Under the pieces are notes generated by a model, which ran no database searches, had not been told where the DNA came from, and saw only the letters and a list, made by a program, of their open reading frames with translations. From assembly GCA_021730285.1 (NCBI GenBank), contig CP082962.1, positions 2,666,001-2,730,000 of the forward strand: a stretch of 64,000 nt of DNA, written 5' to 3'. Source of the DNA: Desulfovibrio sp. JY. Lineage in GTDB: Bacteria > Desulfobacterota > Desulfovibrionia > Desulfovibrionales > Desulfovibrionaceae. The position numbers were made by a program, and so were the translations under genes. Shown here one piece after another: positions 42,695-53,770 of the stretch. Numbering within the stretch: the first letter of the stretch is position 1; each line of letters begins with the position of its first letter.

Positions 42695-42740
42695 CCGGGG
42701 GAGGGAACCCCTTTTTTCAAAAAGGGGTTCCCTCCCCCGG
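42695..42740 (+). terminator. Class B palindromic terminator (B6), start of duplicated module copy 1
   Basis: CCGGGGGAGGGAACCCC pairs with GGGGTTCCCTCCCCCGG, with tail ACCCCCACCCTCCCGAAAAACTTT. It ends metY and starts a roughly 205-bp module that is repeated at 44885-45084. Confidence 0.85.
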
Positions 42741-43231: not shown

Positions 43232-44860
43232 ATGAGCCAATTCAGCCGCCGCAAATTTATCGGAATCGCCCTGGGCGCCAGTAGCGTCGCCATGCTGCCC
43301 GGCGTGGCCTTCACCACCGCCCAGGCCGAAGCCAAAAAGACGCCCAAGCCCAAGGCCGAAACCGGGTCGGCCATGGACAGGATCAAAGCCGCCATCGCGC
43401 ATTGGGAAAAAGACGGCCGGCCGTTTGCCGCCGATGCCCTGGCCGCGGACAACGACGCCCAGTGGGACAAGCTGGTGCGCCACTATTTCGACCGGGACGC
43501 CTTCACCAGCATCTCGGTCAACGCCGCCAACCTGTGCCCGTCCATGAAGCCGGTGTCTTCCATGGTGGAGCTGGTCCAGAGCCTGCTTGCCGCGGACATC
43601 TCCTTTCCCATGCGCGGCGAGTTGGCCGACGCGAGCCTCGTCAACGGCCTTGGCGCGGTGAAGGACTGGTTCGGCTTGGGCCAGATCAAGAGCCCGGCCG
43701 ATTTTCTGCTGGCCCTGACCGCCAACTCCACCGAGGGCAACAACTTCATCAATAACGGCCTTGTGACCTCGGGCTTTTTCGATCCCCAAAAGGACAATGT
43801 CGTCGCCTGGGACGTCAACCATCCCACCAACTACGACGCCTGGTTCTACCGCAAGGCCACCCAGGGCTGGGGCAAGGATTCCGTGCGCGTGTTGCAGACC
43901 AAGATGTTCGCCAACACCGTCACCGACGCCGAGCGCGCCGCCGGCATCATTCCCTCCGATCCGGCCTCGGAAAAGGAAATCCTGGAAGCGCTACGCCGCA
44001 TGGTGGACAAGAACACCAAGATCGTGACGCTGTCCTGGCAGTCCAACGAATGCGGCATGCTGCTGCCCATGAAGCGCATCGTGGACGAACTGCGCACGAT
44101 CAACAAGGACATCTACATCCACGCCGACAGCGCCCAGACCTTCGGCGTGCTGGACTTGAACCTGGACAAGGTGGGTGTGGACAGCATCGCGGGGAGCTTT
44201 CACAAATGGCCCTGCGGCCCCAAGATGGTCGGTATCCTCTACATGAACAACCGTACCGGCGCGGCCGAAAAATTCACGCCGAGCATCTGGGGTTACGACG
44301 AGCACATCAATACCCCGGCCGACTATGGCTTCCCGGCCGAGTCCGGCAAGATCGACCCCAATGCCAAGCGGTTTTCCTACCTGGGCCAGCAAAACGACGC
44401 CACGCTGGTCTCCACCTGGATGGCGGCGCTGTTCCATACCGGCCATTTCCACCCCGGCGTGACCCCGGCCAAAATCGAGGCCCGCGTCCACGCCTTGGGC
44501 GACAAGGTCAAACAGGCGCTCTTCAAGCACCTGCCCAAGGTGTTCCCGGACTTCACCGCCAAAACGGCCTACAAGTGGATCACCACGCCGACCACCAACG
44601 ACGCGCTGCGCAGCTCCGTGTTCCTCTTCAAGACGCCCGAAGGCATCGGGGCCGGCGACGTCATGAAGCACGTCTACGAAAAGCACGGCTTCGCCATCGC
44701 CAACCTCAAGGTGAAAGGCCACGACCTCGTGCGCGTCTCGCCCACCTTCTGCAACCTGTCGTCCGACCCGGAAGCCGTGGTCGCGGCCGTTGTCGACGTC
44801 ATCAAGGCCATGCAGTCCAAGAAACTCGCCAGCAACGTCCACAATCGGTCGTATGCGTAG
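43232..44860 (+). CDS. Tat-exported class V aminotransferase
   Basis: A 542-aa protein with a twin-arginine signal: SRRKFIGIALGASSVAMLPG, then a cleavage-like AQAEA near 30-34. The mature part is a fold-type I class V PLP enzyme (isopenicillin N epimerase/cysteine desulfurase-like). The PLP lysine lies near 325 in GSFHKWPCGPKMVG and the cofactor-binding aspartate near 297 in HADSAQTFG. PLP enzymes are normally cytoplasmic, and Tat export would carry the folded, cofactor-loaded protein to the periplasm. The substrate is unknown. It stands alone between two copies of the B-linker-A module. Confidence 0.85.
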   Translation: MSQFSRRKFIGIALGASSVAMLPGVAFTTAQAEAKKTPKPKAETGSAMDRIKAAIAHWEKDGRPFAADALAADNDAQWDKLVRHYFDRDAFTSISVNAANLCPSMKPVSSMVELVQSLLAADISFPMRGELADASLVNGLGAVKDWFGLGQIKSPADFLLALTANSTEGNNFINNGLVTSGFFDPQKDNVVAWDVNHPTNYDAWFYRKATQGWGKDSVRVLQTKMFANTVTDAERAAGIIPSDPASEKEILEALRRMVDKNTKIVTLSWQSNECGMLLPMKRIVDELRTINKDIYIHADSAQTFGVLDLNLDKVGVDSIAGSFHKWPCGPKMVGILYMNNRTGAAEKFTPSIWGYDEHINTPADYGFPAESGKIDPNAKRFSYLGQQNDATLVSTWMAALFHTGHFHPGVTPAKIEARVHALGDKVKQALFKHLPKVFPDFTAKTAYKWITTPTTNDALRSSVFLFKTPEGIGAGDVMKHVYEKHGFAIANLKVKGHDLVRVSPTFCNLSSDPEAVVAAVVDVIKAMQSKKLASNVHNRSYA

Positions 44861-44884: not shown

Positions 44885-44930
44885 CCGGGGGAGGGAACCC
44901 TTTTTTGAAAAAAAGGGTTCCCTCCCCCGG
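44885..44930 (+). terminator. Class B palindromic terminator (B7), start of duplicated module copy 2
   Basis: CCGGGGGAGGGAACCC pairs with GGGTTCCCTCCCCCGG; the tail ACCCCCACCCTCCCCAAAAACTTT is the same as in B6. It ends the aminotransferase gene. Confidence 0.85.
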
Positions 44931-45113: not shown

Positions 45114-46568
45114 TTATCCAATATACGAGCAGACGTATTTGATCTCGAGGTACTCGTCGATGCCGTATTTGGAGCCTTCACGGCCGATGCCCGACTGTTT
45201 CATGCCGCCGAAGGGGGCGACTTCGTTGGACACGAGTCCGGTATTGTGGCCGACGAGGCCGTATTCCAGCGCCTCGGCCACCCGCCAGACGCGGCTGGCG
45301 TTTTCCGTATAGAAGTAGGCGGCCAGGCCGTATTCGGTAGCGTTGGCCGCGGCGATCACTTCTTCCTCGGTCTCGAAGCGGAAGATCGGGGCCAGCGGGC
45401 CGAAGGTTTCCTCGCGGGCCACGCGCATTTCGCTTGTCACGCCCGACAGGATGGTCGGTTCGAAGAACAGGCCGCCCAGGGCATGGCGCTTGCCGCCGAG
45501 CACCACCTTGGCGCCTTTGCCCAGTGCATCGGCGATGTGGCTCTCCACTTTTTCCACAGCCTTGGCATCGATCATGGGGCCGATGAGGACCCCGGGCTGG
45601 GTGCCCGGTCCCACGGGCATGGCGGCCACGGCTTCGGCAAGGCGTTTGGCAAAGGCGTCGTGGATGCCGGACTGGACATAGAGGCGGTTGGCGCACACGC
45701 AGGTCTGGCCGGCGTTGCGGTATTTGGAGGCGATGGCCCCGGCCACGGCCTGTTCCAGGTCGGCGTCGTCGAAGACGATGAAGGGCGCGTTGCCGCCGAG
45801 TTCCAGGGAGAGGCGCTTGATGGTCGGCGCGCACTGGGCCATGAGCTTGCGCCCGACCTCGGTCGAGCCGGTAAACGACAGTTTGCGCACGATAGGGCTG
45901 TCGGTCAGCACCTTGCCGATGAGGCTCGATTTGCCGGTGACGACCTGGAGCACGCCGGCCGGCACCCCGGCCTGCTCGGCCAGGACGCCGAGCGCCAGGG
46001 CGGTGAAAGGCGTCTTGGCGGCCGGGCGCACGATCATGGCGCAACCTGCGGCCAGCGCCGGTCCGGCCTTACGGGTGATCATGGCGGCCGGGAAGTTCCA
46101 GGGCGTGATGGCGGCGGTGACGCCGACGGGCTGCTTGAGCACGAGCAGGCGCTTGTCGGCGGTCGGCGCGGGAATCACGTCGCCGTATACGCGGCGGGCT
46201 TCCTCGGAGAACCATTTGATGAAAGACGCCGCGTACATGATCTCGCCCTTGGCCTCGGCCAGGGGCTTGCCCTGCTCGGTGGTCAGGATGGTGGCCAGAT
46301 CGTCGGCGGCCTCCAGGATCAGGGCGTGCCATTTTTCCAGCACCGCCGCGCGCTTGGGCGCGGCCAGGGCGGCCCAGGGCCTCCAGGCCGCGTCGGCGGC
46401 GGCGATGACGCCTTCGATTTCCGCGGCCGACAATTGCGGCGCCTTGCCGACCACGCTGCCATCGGCCGGGTTGGTGACGGTGTCGGTCTCGCCGCCTGCC
46501 GCCGCCACCCACTGGCCGTTCACCAGACAGGCTTCCTTGAACAGTTCCGGGTTTTTCAGATTCACCAT
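45114..46568 (-). CDS. gabD: Succinate-semialdehyde dehydrogenase
   Basis: A 484-aa aldehyde dehydrogenase. The catalytic Cys lies in NAGQTCVCANR (near 287), the general base Glu in LELGGNAPFIVFDDADL, and ITPWNFPAAMITRK and FTGSTEVGRKL bind the cofactor. The QTCVCANR context is typical of GabD-type enzymes, which oxidise succinate semialdehyde to succinate with NAD(P). It is the last gene of a minus-strand series with the lactonase and the alcohol dehydrogenase, so the expected substrate is the semialdehyde made from 4-hydroxybutyrate. AAGGGAG precedes the ATG. Confidence 0.92.
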   Translation of the reverse strand: MVNLKNPELFKEACLVNGQWVAAAGGETDTVTNPADGSVVGKAPQLSAAEIEGVIAAADAAWRPWAALAAPKRAAVLEKWHALILEAADDLATILTTEQGKPLAEAKGEIMYAASFIKWFSEEARRVYGDVIPAPTADKRLLVLKQPVGVTAAITPWNFPAAMITRKAGPALAAGCAMIVRPAAKTPFTALALGVLAEQAGVPAGVLQVVTGKSSLIGKVLTDSPIVRKLSFTGSTEVGRKLMAQCAPTIKRLSLELGGNAPFIVFDDADLEQAVAGAIASKYRNAGQTCVCANRLYVQSGIHDAFAKRLAEAVAAMPVGPGTQPGVLIGPMIDAKAVEKVESHIADALGKGAKVVLGGKRHALGGLFFEPTILSGVTSEMRVAREETFGPLAPIFRFETEEEVIAAANATEYGLAAYFYTENASRVWRVAEALEYGLVGHNTGLVSNEVAPFGGMKQSGIGREGSKYGIDEYLEIKYVCSYIG

Positions 46569-46649
46569 GCCGCTCCCTTGGCCCGCGACCGTGCGGACCG
46601 GTTTTTCATGGTTGGCGGTGGGGGATCTTTGCCGGCCCCCCGCGTCGGA

Positions 46650-47429
46650 TCAATCGTAGTAGGCCGGGGCCTGCTTGACGGATTTCCAGGCTTCGGGATC
46701 GTGGCCGGTCATGATGGTCACGCCGTGGGCGTCCTGGAGCAGGCGCATGCGTTCGACGCTGCGCACGGTGTCGCCGGCGTTCCACATGAGTCCCGGCAGG
46801 GTGCCGTTTTGCAGGTTGTCGGTGGTGTAGCAGGAGTCGGCGGCCAGGAAGGTGGGGCCGCTTTTTTCGAGATTGACGAGAATGGACTGGTGGCCGGGGG
46901 TGTGGCCGGGGGTGAAGTGGATGGTGATGGCCTTGTCGCCGAACAGGTCGAACCCCTCGTCGCGCCAGCCTTCGAGGATCACCCAGGGCACGTCCTTGTC
47001 GAAGTCCTTCCGGATGTAGGCGGCCTTCATGTAGGGGTCGGGCACGTAGGCGAAGTGGAGTTCGTCGCGCTGGACGATATATTTGGCGTTGGGGAAATGG
47101 CCCACGCCGCCGGCATGGTCGAGGTGCAGGTGGGACAGGATGACGTAGCTTACGTCTTCCGGGGCGCAGCCGACCTTTTTGATGGCGTTGGCGCACCACT
47201 GGTCTTCGGTCATGACCGGATCGTAGGCGGCCAGGATGGAGCCCCAGTGTTCTTCCTTGTGGTGGACGGTTTCGAGGGCGTTGCCCGTGTCGAAAAGCAC
47301 CTTGCCCTTGGGGTGGTCGATGAGCGCGAAGGGCACGGGGACGTCGAAATCCTTGTTTATCCCTTTGTTCAGGGTGAAGTACTGCTGTTTGCTTTTGAGG
47401 ATGCCCGCTTCGAACATGTACATTTTCAT
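46650..47429 (-). CDS. AHL/gamma-butyrolactone-type lactonase (metallo-beta-lactamase fold)
   Basis: A 259-aa dinuclear-zinc hydrolase. The HxHxDH motif is His100, His102, Asp104, His105 in LSHLHLDHAGG. Further ligands follow in TPGHTPGHQS, AADSCYTT and MTGHDPEA, the full set of AHL lactonase/AttM-like enzymes. The family opens homoserine lactone or gamma-butyrolactone rings. The neighbours convert 4-hydroxybutyrate onward, so gamma-butyrolactone or a related lactone is the more likely substrate than quorum signals. It lies 81 bp before gabD and 47 bp after the alcohol dehydrogenase, in the order expected for one transcript. Confidence 0.85.
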   Translation of the reverse strand: MKMYMFEAGILKSKQQYFTLNKGINKDFDVPVPFALIDHPKGKVLFDTGNALETVHHKEEHWGSILAAYDPVMTEDQWCANAIKKVGCAPEDVSYVILSHLHLDHAGGVGHFPNAKYIVQRDELHFAYVPDPYMKAAYIRKDFDKDVPWVILEGWRDEGFDLFGDKAITIHFTPGHTPGHQSILVNLEKSGPTFLAADSCYTTDNLQNGTLPGLMWNAGDTVRSVERMRLLQDAHGVTIMTGHDPEAWKSVKQAPAYYD

Positions 47430-47476
47430 GGGTATTCTCCGCGTTGGCTGCAGGTGTGCGAGGTATGTCGAGCCGC

Positions 47477-48631
47477 CTACAGGGCCTGCCGGTAGATGAC
47501 GGCGGCGTCTTCCTGGGTCATGTGGCGCGGGTTGTTGGCCAGAAGCCTTGTCACCAGCATGACGCTGGCGGCCAGCGTCGGCACGTGCTCCTCGGTGACG
47601 CCGTAGGCGGCCAGATGCTGGGGCACGGCCAGATCCTCGGCCAGCTCGGTCAGCGCCGTAACCGCGCTGGCGGCGGCCTGGCGCAGGCTCAGGCCCGCAA
47701 CCGGCTGGCCCAGGAAGGAGGCGAGATCGGCGAAGCGCGCGAGGTTGCCGGTCTGGTTGAAGCGCATCACCGGCACCAGCATGATGGTGTTGGCGATGCC
47801 GTGGGGGATGTGGAACTCGGCGCCGATGGGGTAGGCAAAGGCGTGCACGGCCGTGACCCCGGCGTTGGCGAAGGCCATGCCGGCCAGCATGGCCCCGCGC
47901 AGCATGTTTTCCCGGGCGGGCAGATTGTCGCCCTTGGCGTAGGCGGCGCGGATGTTGTTGTAGATCAGGTGGATGGCTTCCTTGGCCAGCATGTCCGTCG
48001 TGGGCGTGGCGTTGATGGAGGTGTAGGCCTCCAGGGCATGGATCAGCGCGTCCATGCCGGTCGCGGCCGTGACCTTGGGGGGGAGTCCGATGGTCAGCTC
48101 GGCGTCGAGCAGGGCCACGGCTGGGAAGATGTACGGGCTCACGATGCCCTTTTTGAGCTTTTCGTGGTGGTCCGAGAGGATGACGATGGGCGTCACCTCG
48201 CTGCCGGTGCCGGCCGTGGTGGGAATGAGGATGGTCTTGAGCCCGGGGGTGGGGATCAGGTCCGTACCGAAGTACTTGCCCACCGGCCCTTCATTGGTGG
48301 CCATGACGGCCGTGATCTTGGCCATGTCCAGCGACGAGCCGCCGCCGATGCCGATGATGACGTCCGCCTTGGCCCCCCTGGCCACGGCCAGGGCGTCCTC
48401 CACGATTTCGTAGCGCGGATCGGCCTCCACCTTGTCGAAGCGGACATGGGCCAGGCCGGCCGCATCGAGCAGGCCTTCCAGGCGTTCCACGATGCCGGAT
48501 GCCGCCACGCCCGGGTCGGTGATGATGCATACGGACGTTCCGCCGAGGCGGCGGACCTCGTCGCCCAGGCGGGCGATGGTTCCGGTTCCCAGGATGATGC
48601 GCGGGGTCGTGGCGAAAATCTCCTGATGCAT
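47477..48631 (-). CDS. Iron-containing alcohol dehydrogenase (4-hydroxybutyrate dehydrogenase-like)
   Basis: A 384-aa group III alcohol dehydrogenase with GGGSSLDMAK, GTGSEVTP, ligands in GMDALIHALEAY and AVHAFAYPIGAEFHIPHGIAN. The placement between a lactonase and an SSA dehydrogenase matches AttL/BlcB-type 4-hydroxybutyrate dehydrogenases, which oxidise 4-hydroxybutyrate to succinate semialdehyde. The ATG at 48631 follows CGGAGGCTTGTCTT; the longer open frame to 48796 lacks family similarity. A long palindrome lies about 100 bp upstream. Confidence 0.88.
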   Translation of the reverse strand: MHQEIFATTPRIILGTGTIARLGDEVRRLGGTSVCIITDPGVAASGIVERLEGLLDAAGLAHVRFDKVEADPRYEIVEDALAVARGAKADVIIGIGGGSSLDMAKITAVMATNEGPVGKYFGTDLIPTPGLKTILIPTTAGTGSEVTPIVILSDHHEKLKKGIVSPYIFPAVALLDAELTIGLPPKVTAATGMDALIHALEAYTSINATPTTDMLAKEAIHLIYNNIRAAYAKGDNLPARENMLRGAMLAGMAFANAGVTAVHAFAYPIGAEFHIPHGIANTIMLVPVMRFNQTGNLARFADLASFLGQPVAGLSLRQAAASAVTALTELAEDLAVPQHLAAYGVTEEHVPTLAASVMLVTRLLANNPRHMTQEDAAVIYRQAL

Positions 48632-48725
48632 AAGACAAGCCTCCGGGTAATACGGTGGTGGTTGAATATGGAGCGGCGACAGCTGGTCCGCCGTCGCATT
48701 CTGCCGTGTCCTGCCTCGTGTCGCG

Positions 48726-48757
48726 TTCTCGAAATTCGTGCATACGAATTTTGAGAA
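48726..48757. promoter_or_regulatory. 32-bp palindrome between permease and alcohol dehydrogenase
   Basis: TTCTC-x-AAATTCGT-GCAT-ACGAATTT-x-GAGAA: 13 of 14 arm positions pair. It is enclosed by a wider GCGTTCTC/GAGAACGC pair (48723-48730 and 48784-48791). The surrounding sequence is very AT-rich. It could be an operator for the enzyme genes or an attenuator after the permease. Confidence 0.55.
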
Positions 48758-48795
48758 TAATATGTTTAAATAATTATTTTTTAGAGAACGCCGCA

Positions 48796-50226
48796 CTAGA
48801 CGGAGGATTTCTCCCCGGCCAGGGCGTCGGCTTCGGCGTCAAGGGCGCGTTGCAGGTCCTCGGCCCAGATCGGGGCGGCGGTGGTGTCGCCGCGGAAGAA
48901 GTCCAGGGCGTAGATGATGAAGCAGACAACAAGCCCGGCCCCGAAGGCCCAGGCCGCGCCCTTGGAGATGAGGATGCCGGCCACCATGCCGCCGATGCCG
49001 AGGTCTTTTAGACTCTTGGCCTCGCGCGCGCCGATGTAGACCGACACGAAGCCCTGAATGATCATGGTCAGGGACAAGGCGGCCGGCAGGATGGGCCGCG
49101 TCATGGAGACGATGGGCAGCAGCCAGTAGCCGGTGAACGTGCCCCAGCGGAAGGCGGCCACGCCGCCGAAGATGGAGTCCATGCTCTCGCGGCCGGTCTT
49201 CCAGCGTTCGTAGGTGACCACGGTCATGGCCGCCCAGATGGGGCCGCACATGGAGACGTCGGGGCCCATGATGGACATGAAGGTGTTGCGGGCGCCGACG
49301 ATCAGGTGGGCCCGGTCGGGGTTGTAGTCCACGTGTTCGTCCGGGCGCTTGGCGTCGGCGTCGCGGATGATGCCCTGGGCCTGGACGGCGTCGCCGAAGA
49401 TCACGATATAGGCGGCCAACACCAGGGGGATGGACTTGAGGTACATGGAAAGCGACGGCCAGCCGAGGGTGCCCCAGGGAACCCAGTCGGTCCACAGGGT
49501 GGTGAAGGCGGGGTGGGAGAAGCCCCACTGGATTTCGAAAGGCGCTTCGCCGACCAGGGGGGCGATGATGATGGCCGCCACGATGGCCGGCAGGATGCCG
49601 AGGTTGGCCGCCAGCTTGACCACGGCGTTTTTCGTGGACCAGCCCCGAAACAGCGGGTTGTACATCATGAAAAGGGCCACCAGGGCGCAGACGCTGATGG
49701 TGATGGGCATGGTGTAGAACTTGCCGCCTTCCTTGAAGATGAGCTGGATGGCGGCGATGCCGGCGCCGAGGATGACGCCGGATTTGACGGCCCGGGGAAT
49801 GAGCCCGATGACCGTGCGGGCAAGGCCGGTGACGCCGAGGAAGAGGCACCAGATGCCGAGCATCAGCTCGAAGGCGATCAGCGCGTGCATGCGCTCCGGG
49901 CCCATGGGATAGGTGAGGCAGTAGGCGATCAGAAGCGGAATGGCCGGCGTGACCCAGCCGGGGACCACCGGGTCGCCGAACAGGGAATGCCAGAGGTAGA
50001 GGAAGCCGTTTAGGATGACGATGGCCAGGGCCACTTCGAAGGGCATGCCGAGGGTATCCTGGAGCACCGGGATGATCGACAGGCACACCGCGCACATGAC
50101 CAGGCCCTGCACATAGTCGGCCCATTCCCAGCGGTAATGAATGCCGGGAAGGCGCAGTTTCAGTTTCCACAGGGGAATGTAGGGCGCTTCGTTATCAGGT
50201 GTCCGTCTGACGCTTTGCACTGCCAT
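48796..50226 (-). CDS. NCS2-like permease
   Basis: A 476-aa integral membrane protein with about twelve hydrophobic segments (for example FEVALAIVILNGFLYLW, VILGAGIAAIQLIF, ILPAIVAAIIIAPLVG). The helix order and the GxVLGAG-like GVILGAGIAAI recall the uracil/xanthine (NCS2) and benzoate permease superfamily, but I cannot assign the substrate. It lies first in the minus-strand series, between a sigma-54-like promoter and the catabolic genes, so import of the lactone or 4-hydroxybutyrate is a reasonable guess. The ATG at 50226 has GGAGG seven bases upstream. Confidence 0.72.
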   Translation of the reverse strand: MAVQSVRRTPDNEAPYIPLWKLKLRLPGIHYRWEWADYVQGLVMCAVCLSIIPVLQDTLGMPFEVALAIVILNGFLYLWHSLFGDPVVPGWVTPAIPLLIAYCLTYPMGPERMHALIAFELMLGIWCLFLGVTGLARTVIGLIPRAVKSGVILGAGIAAIQLIFKEGGKFYTMPITISVCALVALFMMYNPLFRGWSTKNAVVKLAANLGILPAIVAAIIIAPLVGEAPFEIQWGFSHPAFTTLWTDWVPWGTLGWPSLSMYLKSIPLVLAAYIVIFGDAVQAQGIIRDADAKRPDEHVDYNPDRAHLIVGARNTFMSIMGPDVSMCGPIWAAMTVVTYERWKTGRESMDSIFGGVAAFRWGTFTGYWLLPIVSMTRPILPAALSLTMIIQGFVSVYIGAREAKSLKDLGIGGMVAGILISKGAAWAFGAGLVVCFIIYALDFFRGDTTAAPIWAEDLQRALDAEADALAGEKSSV

Positions 50227-50332
50227 GAAGTCCTCCAATCACTCGGTTCGACTGCATTGCCTTTGACGCCGGACGTCGTGTGCCAGGCGCGCCTATGTAG
50301 GCCCCAAAAAGCCACGCCGCCCGTTCCAAGAG

Positions 50333-50349
50333 ATCAATATCCATGCCAA
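50333..50349 (-). promoter_or_regulatory. Candidate sigma-54 promoter
   Basis: On the minus strand TTGGCATG-N4-TTGAT, against the consensus TTGGCACG-N4-TTGCT. The invariant GG is present; the -12 GC reads GA. It lies about 110 bp upstream of the permease ATG, directly downstream of the sigma-54 activator gene. Confidence 0.45.
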
Positions 50350-50434
50350 CGAGATGAAAAAAGGAATAAAAACAGGAAGGGCAGCAATGCCGGAGGGATG
50401 TCGTGCCGATTGACCGAAGCTGCCTACCCGCAAG

Positions 50435-50459
50435 TGATGATAATAAACATCAGGTGATG
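50435..50459. promoter_or_regulatory. Candidate upstream activator site
   Basis: TGATG-N8-CATCA-GG-TGATG, overlapping inverted repeats 86-126 bp upstream of the sigma-54-like promoter, a typical distance for an enhancer-binding protein. Confidence 0.45.
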
Positions 50460-50570
50460 CGGGCGCGCATCGACCCGAAAAGAGAACGCGCTACACGTTA
50501 TGTGATTCGTGAGAAAATAAAGAGGGATACAAAAGCGATGCCGTGGCGCATCGGATGATGCTCGGGGGCA

Positions 50571-52661
50571 TCAGGCTTCGGACAGCCCGTAGCGGCGCGC
50601 TTTGCGCACGATGGTCGACTGGTTGACCCCGAGAGCCCGCGCCGCCTTGCGCGTGGAACCATGGGTGGCCAGGGCCTGCCGGATGGCTTCCCGCTCGGCG
50701 GTTTCCAGAATGCCCCGCAGCCCGGTCTCCTCGGTCGTTTCGACTTCCCCACCGCCCCTGGCCGCGGCCAGGGCCCGGGTGGCCGCCCCGCGGGTGATCA
50801 CGTCGCCCTGACACAGGACCACCAGCCGCTCCATGGTGTTTTCAAGCTGGCGCACGTTGCCCGGCCAGGAACAGGCGGCCAGATAGTCGCAGGCTTCGGG
50901 ATCGATCTGGCGGCTGAGGCCGTACTTGCGGTTGAAGCTCCCCAGAAAGCGGTAGATGAAGTCGAAGATGGCCTCGCGTCGTTCCCGAAGCGGCGGCACG
51001 ACCAGCGGCACGACGCTTAAGCGGTAATAAAGGTCGCTGCGGAACAACCCTTGGCGCATCAGGGTTTCCAGGTCCCGGTTGCTGGCGGCCATGATGCGCA
51101 CGTTCACGGCGGTCGGGCGCACCTCGCCCAGGCGCAGCACCATCCGTTCCTGAAGCACGCGCAACAGCTTGGCCTGCAACCCCAGCGGCAGCTCGCCTAT
51201 CTCGTCGAGAAAAAGCGTGCCCTGGTGGGCCAGCTCGAACACCCCCGGCTTGCCGGCCCGGCAGGCCCCGGTAAAGGCCCCGTGGACATAGCCGAAAAGT
51301 TCGGATTCGAGCAGCGCTTCCGGGATGGCCGCGCAGCTGATCTTGACAAAGGGCCTGTCCTTGCGCGGGCTGTGCTCGTGGATGATGGAGGCCACCACCT
51401 CCTTGCCCACCCCGGATTCGCCGAGGATCAGCACCGTGGAGTCCACCTGGGCCAGGCGCAGCGCCTGCTCGTAGACGTCGCGCATGCGCTTGGAGCGCAC
51501 CACGATGCGCCCGCCCTGGCCGATGCTTTTGCGCAGCGAATCGAGCTCCATGCGGTAGCGGTCGTGCAGGGCGCTGATCTTTTCCAGTTCTTCCTGCAGC
51601 CGTTGCAGCTCGGTGACGTCGCGCACGTTGGTCACCACCCGCCACAGCTTGCCCTTTTCGTCCAGGATGGGGTTGCCCGTGACCACGATGGTTTTGCCGC
51701 GCTTGACCTTCTGGATAATGGTTTCGCTTCGCAGCGACTCCAGCACGAGCAGGGTGACGGACTGGTCGTAGAACCCCTCGCGCACCAGATCGCGCATGCT
51801 GCGCCCCACCACCTCGGCGGCGCGGATGCCGGTGATGCGTTCGTAGGCGCGGTTGATCTGCAAGGTGACGCCCTCGCCGTCGGTGATGAAAATACCGTCG
51901 AAGGAGGAGTCGATGATGGAGCGCAGTTCCCGGGACAGGTCGCGCAGGCTGCGCAGCTTGCCGAGCACGGCGTGGCGGTCGTTGACGTCGCGCAGCCAGA
52001 CCATGCGGCAGGGCGCGGCGTTTGGGCGATAGGGGTCCGGGACCTGCCAGCGCAGGGTCACGTAGCGGGAGTCGTCGCGCATGGCCAGCGCCACCGCCGC
52101 CGGTTCCACCGGGTCGTCCTCGACATCGAAGCCCGCGCCCACAAGCGCTTGCCGCAGGCCCACGCCCCGGCGGCCGGCATCGCCAAGCACCAGTCTGGCC
52201 GCGTCGTTGGCCCAGCCGATGATCCCGTCGCGGTCGCACAGGAGCAGCGGCTCGGGAAATCGGGCCAGGGCGCGGGCCCAGGGCTCGGCCGTATTGGTCC
52301 GGTTGGTTGCGATTTCGGGCAAAAGGCTCGATGCGTCCACGCAGCCCATGATCCGGTTGAGGCTGTCGACAACGGCCAGGAACCGGTTCTCGTACCAGGC
52401 GATCTCGTTGACCGGGGTGTCGGGCTGCACGGCGCAGATGTGGCGATGGGCGTGGTGGGAAACCGGGTCGGACAGATTGGCTCCGCCGGCCAGGGCGCGG
52501 ATGAGGTCGTCGCTGGTGAATATCGTTTCCGGATAGCCGGAGTCGCCAAGCACCTGCGCCCCGCCCACGCCGTTGCCGCGAAAAAGCGCGGCCGCCTCGC
52601 GCAGCGTGTCGTCCTTGCGCAGGAAATGCGCGTTGTGCTGCATGATGTCGTGGACTTTCAT
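50571..52661 (-). CDS. Sigma-54-dependent activator with CBS and PAS domains
   Basis: A 696-aa enhancer-binding protein. A CBS pair spans about 1-115 ([14 protein letters not shown], then [16 protein letters not shown]). Two PAS-like regions follow, the second near 250-370 ([15 protein letters not shown]). The AAA+ domain has Walker A GESGVGKE (about 413), the sigma-54 contact loop [16 protein letters not shown] and [13 protein letters not shown] Fis-type HTH ends the protein ([20 protein letters not shown]). PAS and CBS domains suggest control by a small ligand or adenylate. It probably drives the adjacent permease-catabolic genes. GGGAGCAGGTC precedes the ATG at 52661. Confidence 0.9.
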
Positions 52662-52840: not shown

Positions 52841-52888
52841 CCGTCACAGGGGCCGCAAGCCACGCGGCCGCGACGGCGGGGAGGCCCC

Positions 52889-53770
52889 ATGCGGGAAATC
52901 GCCGAACTCATGGGCCGGTTGGCCGTAAACGAAGGGGAAACCGCCACGGATGTCCCCGGCGTCGCCCTGCACAAGCGCACGGGAAGCATCTGCCGCACGC
53001 CGCTGCTCTACCAGCAAGGCGTTATCATCCTCGGCCAGGGCGCCAAGAAAGTGCATCTCGCTGACACCATCTACACCTACGACCCGGATCACTATCTGGT
53101 CTTGTCCGTGCCCCTGCCCGCCGAATGCGAGGCCGTGGTGCACCCCGGCGAGCCGCTCCTGTCGCTTAAGGTCGATATCGACCTGCACATGCTCACAAGC
53201 GTTATCGACCAGATGGACGAGGCCGCCCCGGGCAGCCCCGCGCGACCGTGCTGCTGCCGCCATCAGGGCCTCACCCTGGCCTTTGCCGACGCCCCCTTCA
53301 AGGAAACGGTTCGCAGACTCCTTTGCGCGCTCCTCTCTCCCCGCGAGGCCCGGGTGCTCGGCCGGGGACTGGTGCGCGAACTGCTCTTTCGCATCATGTG
53401 CGGCGAAAACGCCGCCTCCCTCTACGCCCTGGCCCACAAAAACACCGGACTCTCCCGCATCGACAAGGCGCTCAAGCAAATTCACTACAACTTCAGCCAG
53501 CCCTGTAGCGTCGAACAGCTCGCCGGCTCGGTCAACATGAGCACCTCGGCCTTTCACCGTGCCTTCAAGGACGTCACCTCGCTCTCGCCCATCCAATATC
53601 TGAAAAAAGTGCGCCTCAACAAAGCCAGAAGCCTGCTCGTCGAAGACGGCCTGCGCGCCAGCGACGCCGCCCGACAGGTCGGCTACGAAAGCGTCTCCCA
53701 GTTCAACCGCGAATTCAAACGCTACTTCGGCGCCAGCCCCCGCCAGCTGCCGGAGATCAACGGTCGGTAG
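52889..53770 (+). CDS. AraC-family transcriptional regulator
   Basis: A 293-aa regulator with an AraC_N-type N-terminal domain (RTPLLYQQGVIILGQGAKKV, then YLVLSVPLPAECE). The C-terminal double HTH contains VEQLAGSVNMSTSAFHRAFK and ASDAARQVGYESVSQFNREFKRYFG. The cysteine run RPCCCRH near 141-147 is unusual and could be redox-active or metal-binding. The ATG at 52889 has GGGGAGG just upstream. It is divergent from the sigma-54 activator and may control it or the cluster. Confidence 0.88.
   Translation: MREIAELMGRLAVNEGETATDVPGVALHKRTGSICRTPLLYQQGVIILGQGAKKVHLADTIYTYDPDHYLVLSVPLPAECEAVVHPGEPLLSLKVDIDLHMLTSVIDQMDEAAPGSPARPCCCRHQGLTLAFADAPFKETVRRLLCALLSPREARVLGRGLVRELLFRIMCGENAASLYALAHKNTGLSRIDKALKQIHYNFSQPCSVEQLAGSVNMSTSAFHRAFKDVTSLSPIQYLKKVRLNKARSLLVEDGLRASDAARQVGYESVSQFNREFKRYFGASPRQLPEINGR

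Follow-up and report, generated by a model that had tools for sequence, protein, structure and literature searches.

The stretch of DNA analyzed here, which we call the window, comprises 64 kb (positions 2666001–2730000) of the 4.69-Mb single-contig genome of Desulfovibrio sp. JY. At 45114–52661 it carries five minus-strand genes whose products look like the parts of a pathway for the use of γ-butyrolactone (GBL) and 4-hydroxybutyrate (4HB). The first-pass annotation, made from the letters alone, had described five same-strand genes in the order activator, permease, Fe-alcohol dehydrogenase, lactonase, GabD, and all five open reading frames lie where it had put them:

45114..46568, minus strand: GabD-type succinate-semialdehyde dehydrogenase (SSADH), over the cut-off of TIGR01780 and matching PDB 3ek1 and 3jz4
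46650..47429, minus strand: AttM/BlcC-like lactonase of the metallo-β-lactamase fold, predicted from profiles, motifs and gene neighborhoods to hydrolyze GBL
47477..48631, minus strand: iron-containing alcohol dehydrogenase (Fe-ADH), predicted 4HB dehydrogenase from profiles, its BlcB sister clade and a HAxAYP[IL]G motif
48796..50226, minus strand: NCS2/NAT-type permease, predicted 4HB transporter from its match to PurT (PDB 7tak, 4.5e-92) and its gene neighborhoods
50571..52661, minus strand: sigma-54-dependent activator of 696 aa, CBS–PAS–AAA+–helix-turn-helix (HTH) by Pfam, with kin beside other 4HB modules

The gaps between the GabD, lactonase, Fe-ADH, permease and activator genes are 81, 47, 164 and 344 bp, respectively, with the ATG of the Fe-ADH gene corrected to 48631. 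Because 344 bp separate it from the permease gene, the activator gene is probably a transcription unit of its own, with a promoter region between the two. By sequence the host is assigned to Solidesulfovibrio, because this genus includes a genome (G259; G and L labels denote the genomes and fetched loci of our comparison set) whose locus is identical to one from Solidesulfovibrio alcoholivorans DSM 5433 (L027 inside L001).

GabD scores 721.9 bits against the SSADH model TIGR01780 (cut-off 646) and has the catalytic Cys and Glu motifs, with QTCVCAN at 288. It is 70% identical to the SSADH of Agrobacterium C58 and 88% identical to a second SSADH of the JY genome, encoded beside GabT (TIGR00700, over cut-off) in a γ-aminobutyrate (GABA) locus (L054, 4430400–4435700 of the contig) that also holds another sigma-54 activator gene and, by eye, ABC-transporter-like genes. 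The best NCBIfam model for the lactonase is AttM (NF045700, an equivalog model; 329.6 bits). This protein is 47% identical to its C58 counterpart and meets the pattern of metallo-β-lactamase-fold proteins resembling acyl-homoserine lactone (AHL) lactonases, HxHxDH plus downstream His, Asp and His ligands, with SHLHLDH at 99, TPGHTPGH at 173, AADSCYTT at 196 and TGHDPE at 241. Fe-ADH matches Fe-ADH family domains in Pfam at 2.3e-60 and 5.6e-49 and is 43% identical to its C58 counterpart. Its clade is sister to BlcB (97/96) and stands apart from nine JY paralogs, the best of them 41% identical, in a tree of 20 rows kept after removal of identical copies, with several cluster Fe-ADHs (62–78%) missing and no characterized outgroup. 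The Tyr of the HAxAYP[IL]G motif is common to all cluster and Blc Fe-ADHs displayed, and occurs in none of the six JY paralogs in which the motif was read.

The company kept by relatives of the lactonase bears on its substrate. Among 32 usable loci with a lactonase of about 54% identity or more, a gene for 4HB consumption is close at hand in 28: Fe-ADH in 9, hydroxyacid-oxoacid transhydrogenase (HOT) in 4, and CoA-transferase and/or 4HB-CoA dehydratase in 15. For many of these neighbors the name comes from inspection by eye or from tblastn with a single example per kind; the examples were then checked against libraries, and each enzyme kind was identified from one or two of them. The dehydratase of L004 matches PDB 1u8v at 1.2e-204, a 4HB CoA-transferase near the lactonase matches PDB 3eh7 and 3gk7 at 2.5e-141 and 3.1e-130, and the transhydrogenase of L003 is about 48% identical to plasmid proteins named HOT. 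In anaerobes, the lactonases beside such other modules are 54–78% identical to that of the window. This company independently backs the route that the first-pass annotation had proposed, which runs from lactone through 4HB and succinate semialdehyde and ends in succinate, because close kin of the lactonase adjoin kin of 4HB CoA-transferase, 4HB-CoA dehydratase and transhydrogenase. The sister position of Fe-ADH to BlcB adds to this, and the predicted route is supported.

The 32 loci include two contigs of one metagenome-assembled genome (MAG; L018 and L019), three contigs of one genome (L037, L041 and L042), three loci at contig edges with partial genes (L013, L019 and L038) and one whose dehydratase gene lies about 3 kb off (L018). 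Outside the count are a 46-residue fragment at a contig edge (L020), a 32% relative (L021), the Blc loci L022, L023 and L074, a 48% relative with no 4HB enzyme recognized (L040/L048) and a 47% relative on a Klebsiella plasmid, with no module (L024). In L048 (5829–6608) the neighbors resemble, by eye, dihydrolipoamide dehydrogenase, short-chain dehydrogenase/reductase and Zn-dependent alcohol dehydrogenase, and this lactonase probably acts on a different lactone. One lactonase, 76% identical, lies on a contig binned as Verrucomicrobia beside a glycerol-dehydrogenase-like gene (L005, 7743–9780), by horizontal transfer or a binning error. Contig WRKB01000068 (L014/L034), labeled Betaproteobacteria, carries an identical protein in the same position as genome G286 of the window's family and is probably a mislabeled MAG. 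In a deltaproteobacterial MAG (L008, 7671–13433) a transhydrogenase gene is followed by genes for the lactonase, a GlcD-like FAD enzyme and the subunits of an electron-transfer flavoprotein (ETF). The GlcD-like enzyme with ETF would suit the reoxidation of D-2-hydroxyglutarate. The set is a possible NAD-independent bacterial route for 4HB oxidation. A passage of PMC5125639 describes the mammalian HOT family as oxidizing γ-hydroxybutyrate.

The gene set itself recurs in the host genus. The lactonase was found in 16 of 288 family genomes, including 4 of 14 in the host genus, and in 2 of 395 genomes of a phylum sample, one of them JY. All four host-genus genomes with the lactonase (the window, G262, G259 and G268) have the full order activator, permease, Fe-ADH, lactonase, GabD, although in G268 a contig end cuts GabD; that three further Solidesulfovibrio genomes repeat the order argues against a chance grouping. 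The cluster in G002 is the same minus the permease. In G196 and G208, activator, lactonase and Fe-ADH precede a Mop-like molybdenum aldehyde oxidoreductase (PDB 1sij at 8.6e-178 in G196; NF045668 at 790.9 bits, cut-off 1100, in G208), and G237 has the order activator, Fe-ADH, Sad-like aldehyde dehydrogenase (NF006915 at 556.4 bits, cut-off 730), lactonase. Judged by gene content, the aldehyde step is kept among Fe-ADH loci while its enzyme changes. The exact five-gene order, for which the first-pass annotation had suggested a search among relatives, is confined to four Solidesulfovibrio genomes, and other genera show rearrangement, lack of the permease or functional equivalents; the random scatter that would have spoken against a unit was not what we found.

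The permease tracks the same chemistry. It occurs in 10 of 288 family genomes and 10 of 395 in the phylum sample, JY being in both. Three permeases with no lactonase detected on their stretch (G134, G141 and G004) adjoin Fe-ADH and an aldehyde:ferredoxin-oxidoreductase-type enzyme, joined in G004 by an SSADH over cut-off. Four more without a detected lactonase (G324, G415, G323 and G559) adjoin CoA-transferase and 4HB-CoA dehydratase, that of G559 matching PDB 1u8v at 1.6e-216, and at the permease locus of G126 these two enzymes occur as more distant homologs. On the Agrobacterium MWF001 plasmid the permease lies beside SSADH, IclR, Fe-ADH and lactonase genes, and on a Thioclava plasmid beside SSADH and Fe-ADH. 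The window permease falls in a clade of 16 rows (100/99), 14 of which have a 4HB-type or Fe-ADH neighbor, counting one weak case, a Fusobacteria row with Fe-ADH only, near a glycyl-radical enzyme. Outside the clade, no 4HB gene was recognized near L083, L077, L084 or L086, and the one candidate near L085 is a dehydratase-like gene (35%) accompanied by ETF genes. The tree excluded two partial permeases of G117 (61 and 71%; coverage filter), whose locus L072 has no visible 4HB gene, and the set leaves out two further Thioclava plasmids and the Fusobacterium vincentii and Stutzerimonas matches. Because it accompanies 4HB genes where the lactonase is missing as well, and does so in two clusters from alphaproteobacteria, we suggest that the permease is probably a 4HB carrier in an NCS2/NAT fold.

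The CBS (residues 3–58) and PAS domains that had been claimed for the activator were both found by Pfam, together with Sigma54_activat (6.6e-67) and HTH. Like sigma-54 enhancer-binding activators, it combines an AAA+ domain for interaction with sigma-54 and a Fis-type HTH, and activators of the same type adjoin other 4HB modules in relatives. Between its gene and that of the permease lie four candidate control elements:

50556..50573, no strand: first palindrome (TGATGC-N6-GCATCA), a predicted enhancer site that overlaps the stop codon of the activator gene
50536..50553, no strand: second palindrome (CGATGC-N6-GCATCG), a predicted enhancer site
50455..50472, no strand: third palindrome ([TC]GATGC-N6-GCATC[AG]), a predicted enhancer site
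50333..50348, minus strand: −24/−12-like sigma-54 element TGGCATGGATATTGAT, an imperfect GG-N10-GA that lies 108 bp ahead of the start of the permease gene

In five genomes the stretch between activator and permease holds three copies of the palindrome [TC]GATGC-N6-GCATC[AG], with Fe-ADH in the place of the permease in L043 and one degenerate copy in L044. Across all loci fetched, redundant copies included, its arms are found 65 times at a spacing of 6, the counts for the remaining spacings between 0 and 15 being 0–4 each. In a reduced list of 41 loci, several short ones of which stop before the upstream region, the exact palindrome is present in 15 of 20 loci with the same activator type (42% identity or more), and in none of two with a distant activator (34 and 39%), six with another activator type, and four from alphaproteobacteria; L051 and L081 carry palindromes and no same-type activator on their stretch. 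The JY genome has 20 sites as opposed to 2 for a reversed control pattern, and nowhere but at the window locus do two or more of them fall within 250 bp. The palindrome is therefore, on this distribution, probably the enhancer site of the activator. The element TGGCATGGATATTGAT aligns in all five upstream regions compared; better −24/−12 matches occur in loci of other anaerobes, such as TGGCACGCAACTTGCT in L015, and L047 and L070 have weak ones. Lactonases of 56–57% identity in the g21 genomes (L049, L050 and L051) have the same palindromes upstream and no recognized 4HB enzyme; in two of these loci enoyl-CoA-hydratase-like genes, named by eye, adjoin the lactonase.

What we see are the gene families, the conserved sites and the way in which each part turns up again and again with 4HB enzymes, and this makes it highly probable, in our judgment, that the cluster is a dedicated GBL/4HB utilization locus with a 4HB-importing permease and a palindrome-binding sigma-54 activator. 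The NCS2-type permease would import 4HB, and GBL would probably cross the membrane unaided and be opened to 4HB by the lactonase. Fe-ADH would then oxidize 4HB to succinate semialdehyde, and GabD would oxidize this to succinate. The CBS–PAS activator may sense a pathway metabolite, the energy state or both; it would bind the three TGATGC-N6-GCATCA-like palindromes and fire a predicted sigma-54 promoter before the permease. We infer in this way the substrates, direction, cofactors, inducer, transport and activator binding to the palindromes.

Several observations weigh against this interpretation. The lactonase falls short of the curated AttM cut-off (329.6 vs. 390 bits) and is a relative of AttM, not an equivalog, and four of the 32 lactonase loci (L005, L039, L041 and L042) lack a recognized 4HB enzyme. 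Fe-ADH stays under the cut-off of every one of the 17 listed NCBIfam families, and the fate of succinate is unexplained. With regard to regulation, five of the 20 loci with a same-type activator, and the two with distant ones, lack the exact palindrome (the five have best versions, without a shuffle control, with two mismatches in L015 and L016, three in L078 and L082 and four in L070), 17 further single palindromes are scattered elsewhere in the JY genome, and the −12 GA of the promoter-like element is off consensus, its score alone being matched by 9% of shuffles and not significant. To these must be added three features of the permease: its relation to PurT, which we take to be a purine transporter, and, within its own clade, the pair G118 and G429 (100/100), which has no 4HB neighbors, and the YgeY-family hydrolase gene (384.7 bits, cut-off 321) that adjoins the G118 permease (L068 7145–10044, 62%).

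The permease features could mean that the permease is a purine or nucleobase carrier that lies in the operon by chance, while the rest is a 4HB pathway supplied by GBL diffusing in or by 4HB formed internally. PurT, matched strongly over residues 4–439, is the only solved relative that we found (the Pfam NCS2 model, PF00860, gives 24.1 bits, under its gathering cut-off of 27). Moreover, G002 has the cluster with no permease, and the YgeY family is, we believe, linked to purine and ureide genes. Nevertheless, we consider this alternative unlikely, given that the clade's neighbors are varied 4HB enzymes in Desulfobacterota and two alphaproteobacterial genera and that, besides the YgeY-like gene, no purine gene was recognized by eye among the neighbors displayed, in a search that was not systematic. 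The G118/G429 pair, the latter on a 6.8-kb contig, may retain a purine role.

The best NCBIfam model of Fe-ADH is SarD, sulfoacetaldehyde reductase (361.5 bits, cut-off 700), as might be expected if Fe-ADH and GabD served sulfoacetaldehyde-type organosulfonate metabolism or if the substrate were another ω-hydroxy acid or lactone. We think this very unlikely, as GabD exceeds the SSADH cut-off and is 88% identical to the GABA-locus copy, kin of the lactonase and permease adjoin 4HB-CoA dehydratase, which is specific to C4 chemistry, and Fe-ADH is sister to BlcB (in a tree without SarD itself). Quorum quenching, with the lactonase degrading AHLs beside incidental neighbors, would agree with the AHL-lactonase names of its best family model and closest solved structures, and a passage of PMC5924552 reports that BlcC cleaves both GBL and many AHLs. 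However, no acyl-chain or homoserine function was recognized in any of the five cluster proteins, and the lactonase's kin sit with 4HB CoA-transferase, 4HB-CoA dehydratase and transhydrogenase; we give the idea very little credence, although AHL cleavage may be a side activity. Least credible is a cluster that disposes of electrons by working reductively toward 4HB, its lactonase removing the GBL that arises from 4HB, for although the host is anaerobic and many Fe-ADHs work as reductases, GabD-type dehydrogenases are practically irreversible and Mo- or W-type aldehyde oxidoreductases stand in equivalent positions.

The genes of the locus may not share one history. Cluster GabD lies among GabDs of Solidesulfovibrio, one of which is JY's own copy beside GabT, and apart from the Blc SSADHs (99/100), in a tree rooted at the midpoint because the planned outgroup is missing; it was probably recruited separately from the Blc set. 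Because GabD groups with host-genus GabDs and not with Blc enzymes, the blcABC-like set seems to have been put together anew, at least in part. In the lactonase tree, 31 rows split from the Blc rows and a Klebsiella row (100/100); L040, L017, L024 and L018 are long branches of unsure place. Among the labeled rows the module label needs 8 changes, where 6 is the minimum for 7 labels, and the GabD-, Mop- and Sad-type loci with one HOT locus form a nested group (96/89). As sister clades of BlcC and BlcB, in trees that hold no characterized outgroup, the lactonase and Fe-ADH would fit a shared or an unshared ancestral pair alike. We lean toward the view that anaerobes share a 4HB/GBL regulon made of one activator family and its site, one lactonase clade, one 4HB permease clade and interchangeable exit modules, namely Fe-ADH with aldehyde dehydrogenase, Mo- or W-type aldehyde oxidoreductases, HOT with GlcD-like enzyme and ETF, or CoA-transferase/dehydratase; the set found here would then have been reassembled, at least in part, within that system.

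On the far side of the activator, an AraC-type gene is divergent (about 52886–53770), and at the other end a gene at 43232–44860 converges on the cluster. Its product is class V aminotransferase-like, with a twin-arginine-like start (SRRKFIG, by eye) and a weak match to the NCBIfam PvdN model (47.4 bits, cut-off 650). Between it and GabD lies a terminator-like palindrome at 44890–44925 (AACCC and a T-run, then an A-run and GGGTT), and translations resembling those at this palindrome recur, by eye, near 42720 and 54135.

The open PubMed Central literature, outside which most subscription papers lie, returned nothing on a 4HB transporter or on 4HB with an NCS2 permease, a single engineering review for GBL and 4HB with an anaerobic lactonase, no paper on topic by title for butyrolactone in Desulfovibrio or, among the matches listed, for 4HB in sulfate reducers, and nothing for PurTCp or for Desulfovibrio alcoholovorans with butanediol. 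Our analysis predicts that some sulfate reducers grow on GBL and 4HB, points to a specific protein as a candidate 4HB transporter of bacteria, with a fold otherwise associated with nucleobases and vitamin C, and supplies in the palindrome a DNA site for finding such loci and testing their regulation. It also speaks for a carbon-source role, and against quorum quenching, for the AttM-like lactonases of anaerobes. As 4HB is both a drug and a bioplastic monomer, its transporters, sensors and dehydrogenases could be of practical use.

Four known systems invite comparison. PurT-type NCS2/NAT permeases are homologous to the window permease, which differs in keeping the company of 4HB enzymes and in its predicted substrate, 4HB instead of purines. 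The 4HB route of the Clostridium aminobutyricum type uses a CoA-transferase and a dehydratase where the window cluster has dehydrogenases, yet those two enzymes adjoin kin of the window lactonase, permease and activator in other anaerobes; PDB 3gk7 and 1u8v are presumably the Clostridium aminobutyricum proteins. A search of the JY genome for AbfD, run without a positive control and not covering AbfT, did not find it. In the HOT/ADHFE1 route, an enzyme of the Fe-ADH superfamily acts on the same substrate and adjoins a window-type lactonase in four loci, although the HOT-type proteins of lactonase loci are only about 32% identical to the window Fe-ADH and HOT, according to a passage of PMC5125639, uses 2-oxoglutarate as acceptor. 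Closest is blcABC (attKLM) of Agrobacterium, with the same three enzyme types and the same inferred route. The first-pass annotation held that the window enzymes reproduce BlcC, BlcB and BlcA; the three types do stand together, but the GabD tree indicates that the cluster is not simply a transplanted blcABC. No IclR-family protein was found among the seven window proteins scanned, the regulators being the sigma-54 activator and the divergent AraC-type protein. In C58, blcABC has the order SSADH, alcohol dehydrogenase, lactonase, lacks a permease as annotated and is governed by the IclR-type repressor BlcR, whereas the window cluster has another order, a permease and a sigma-54 activator with palindromic sites, and its lactonase and SSADH belong to clades separate from those of blcABC.

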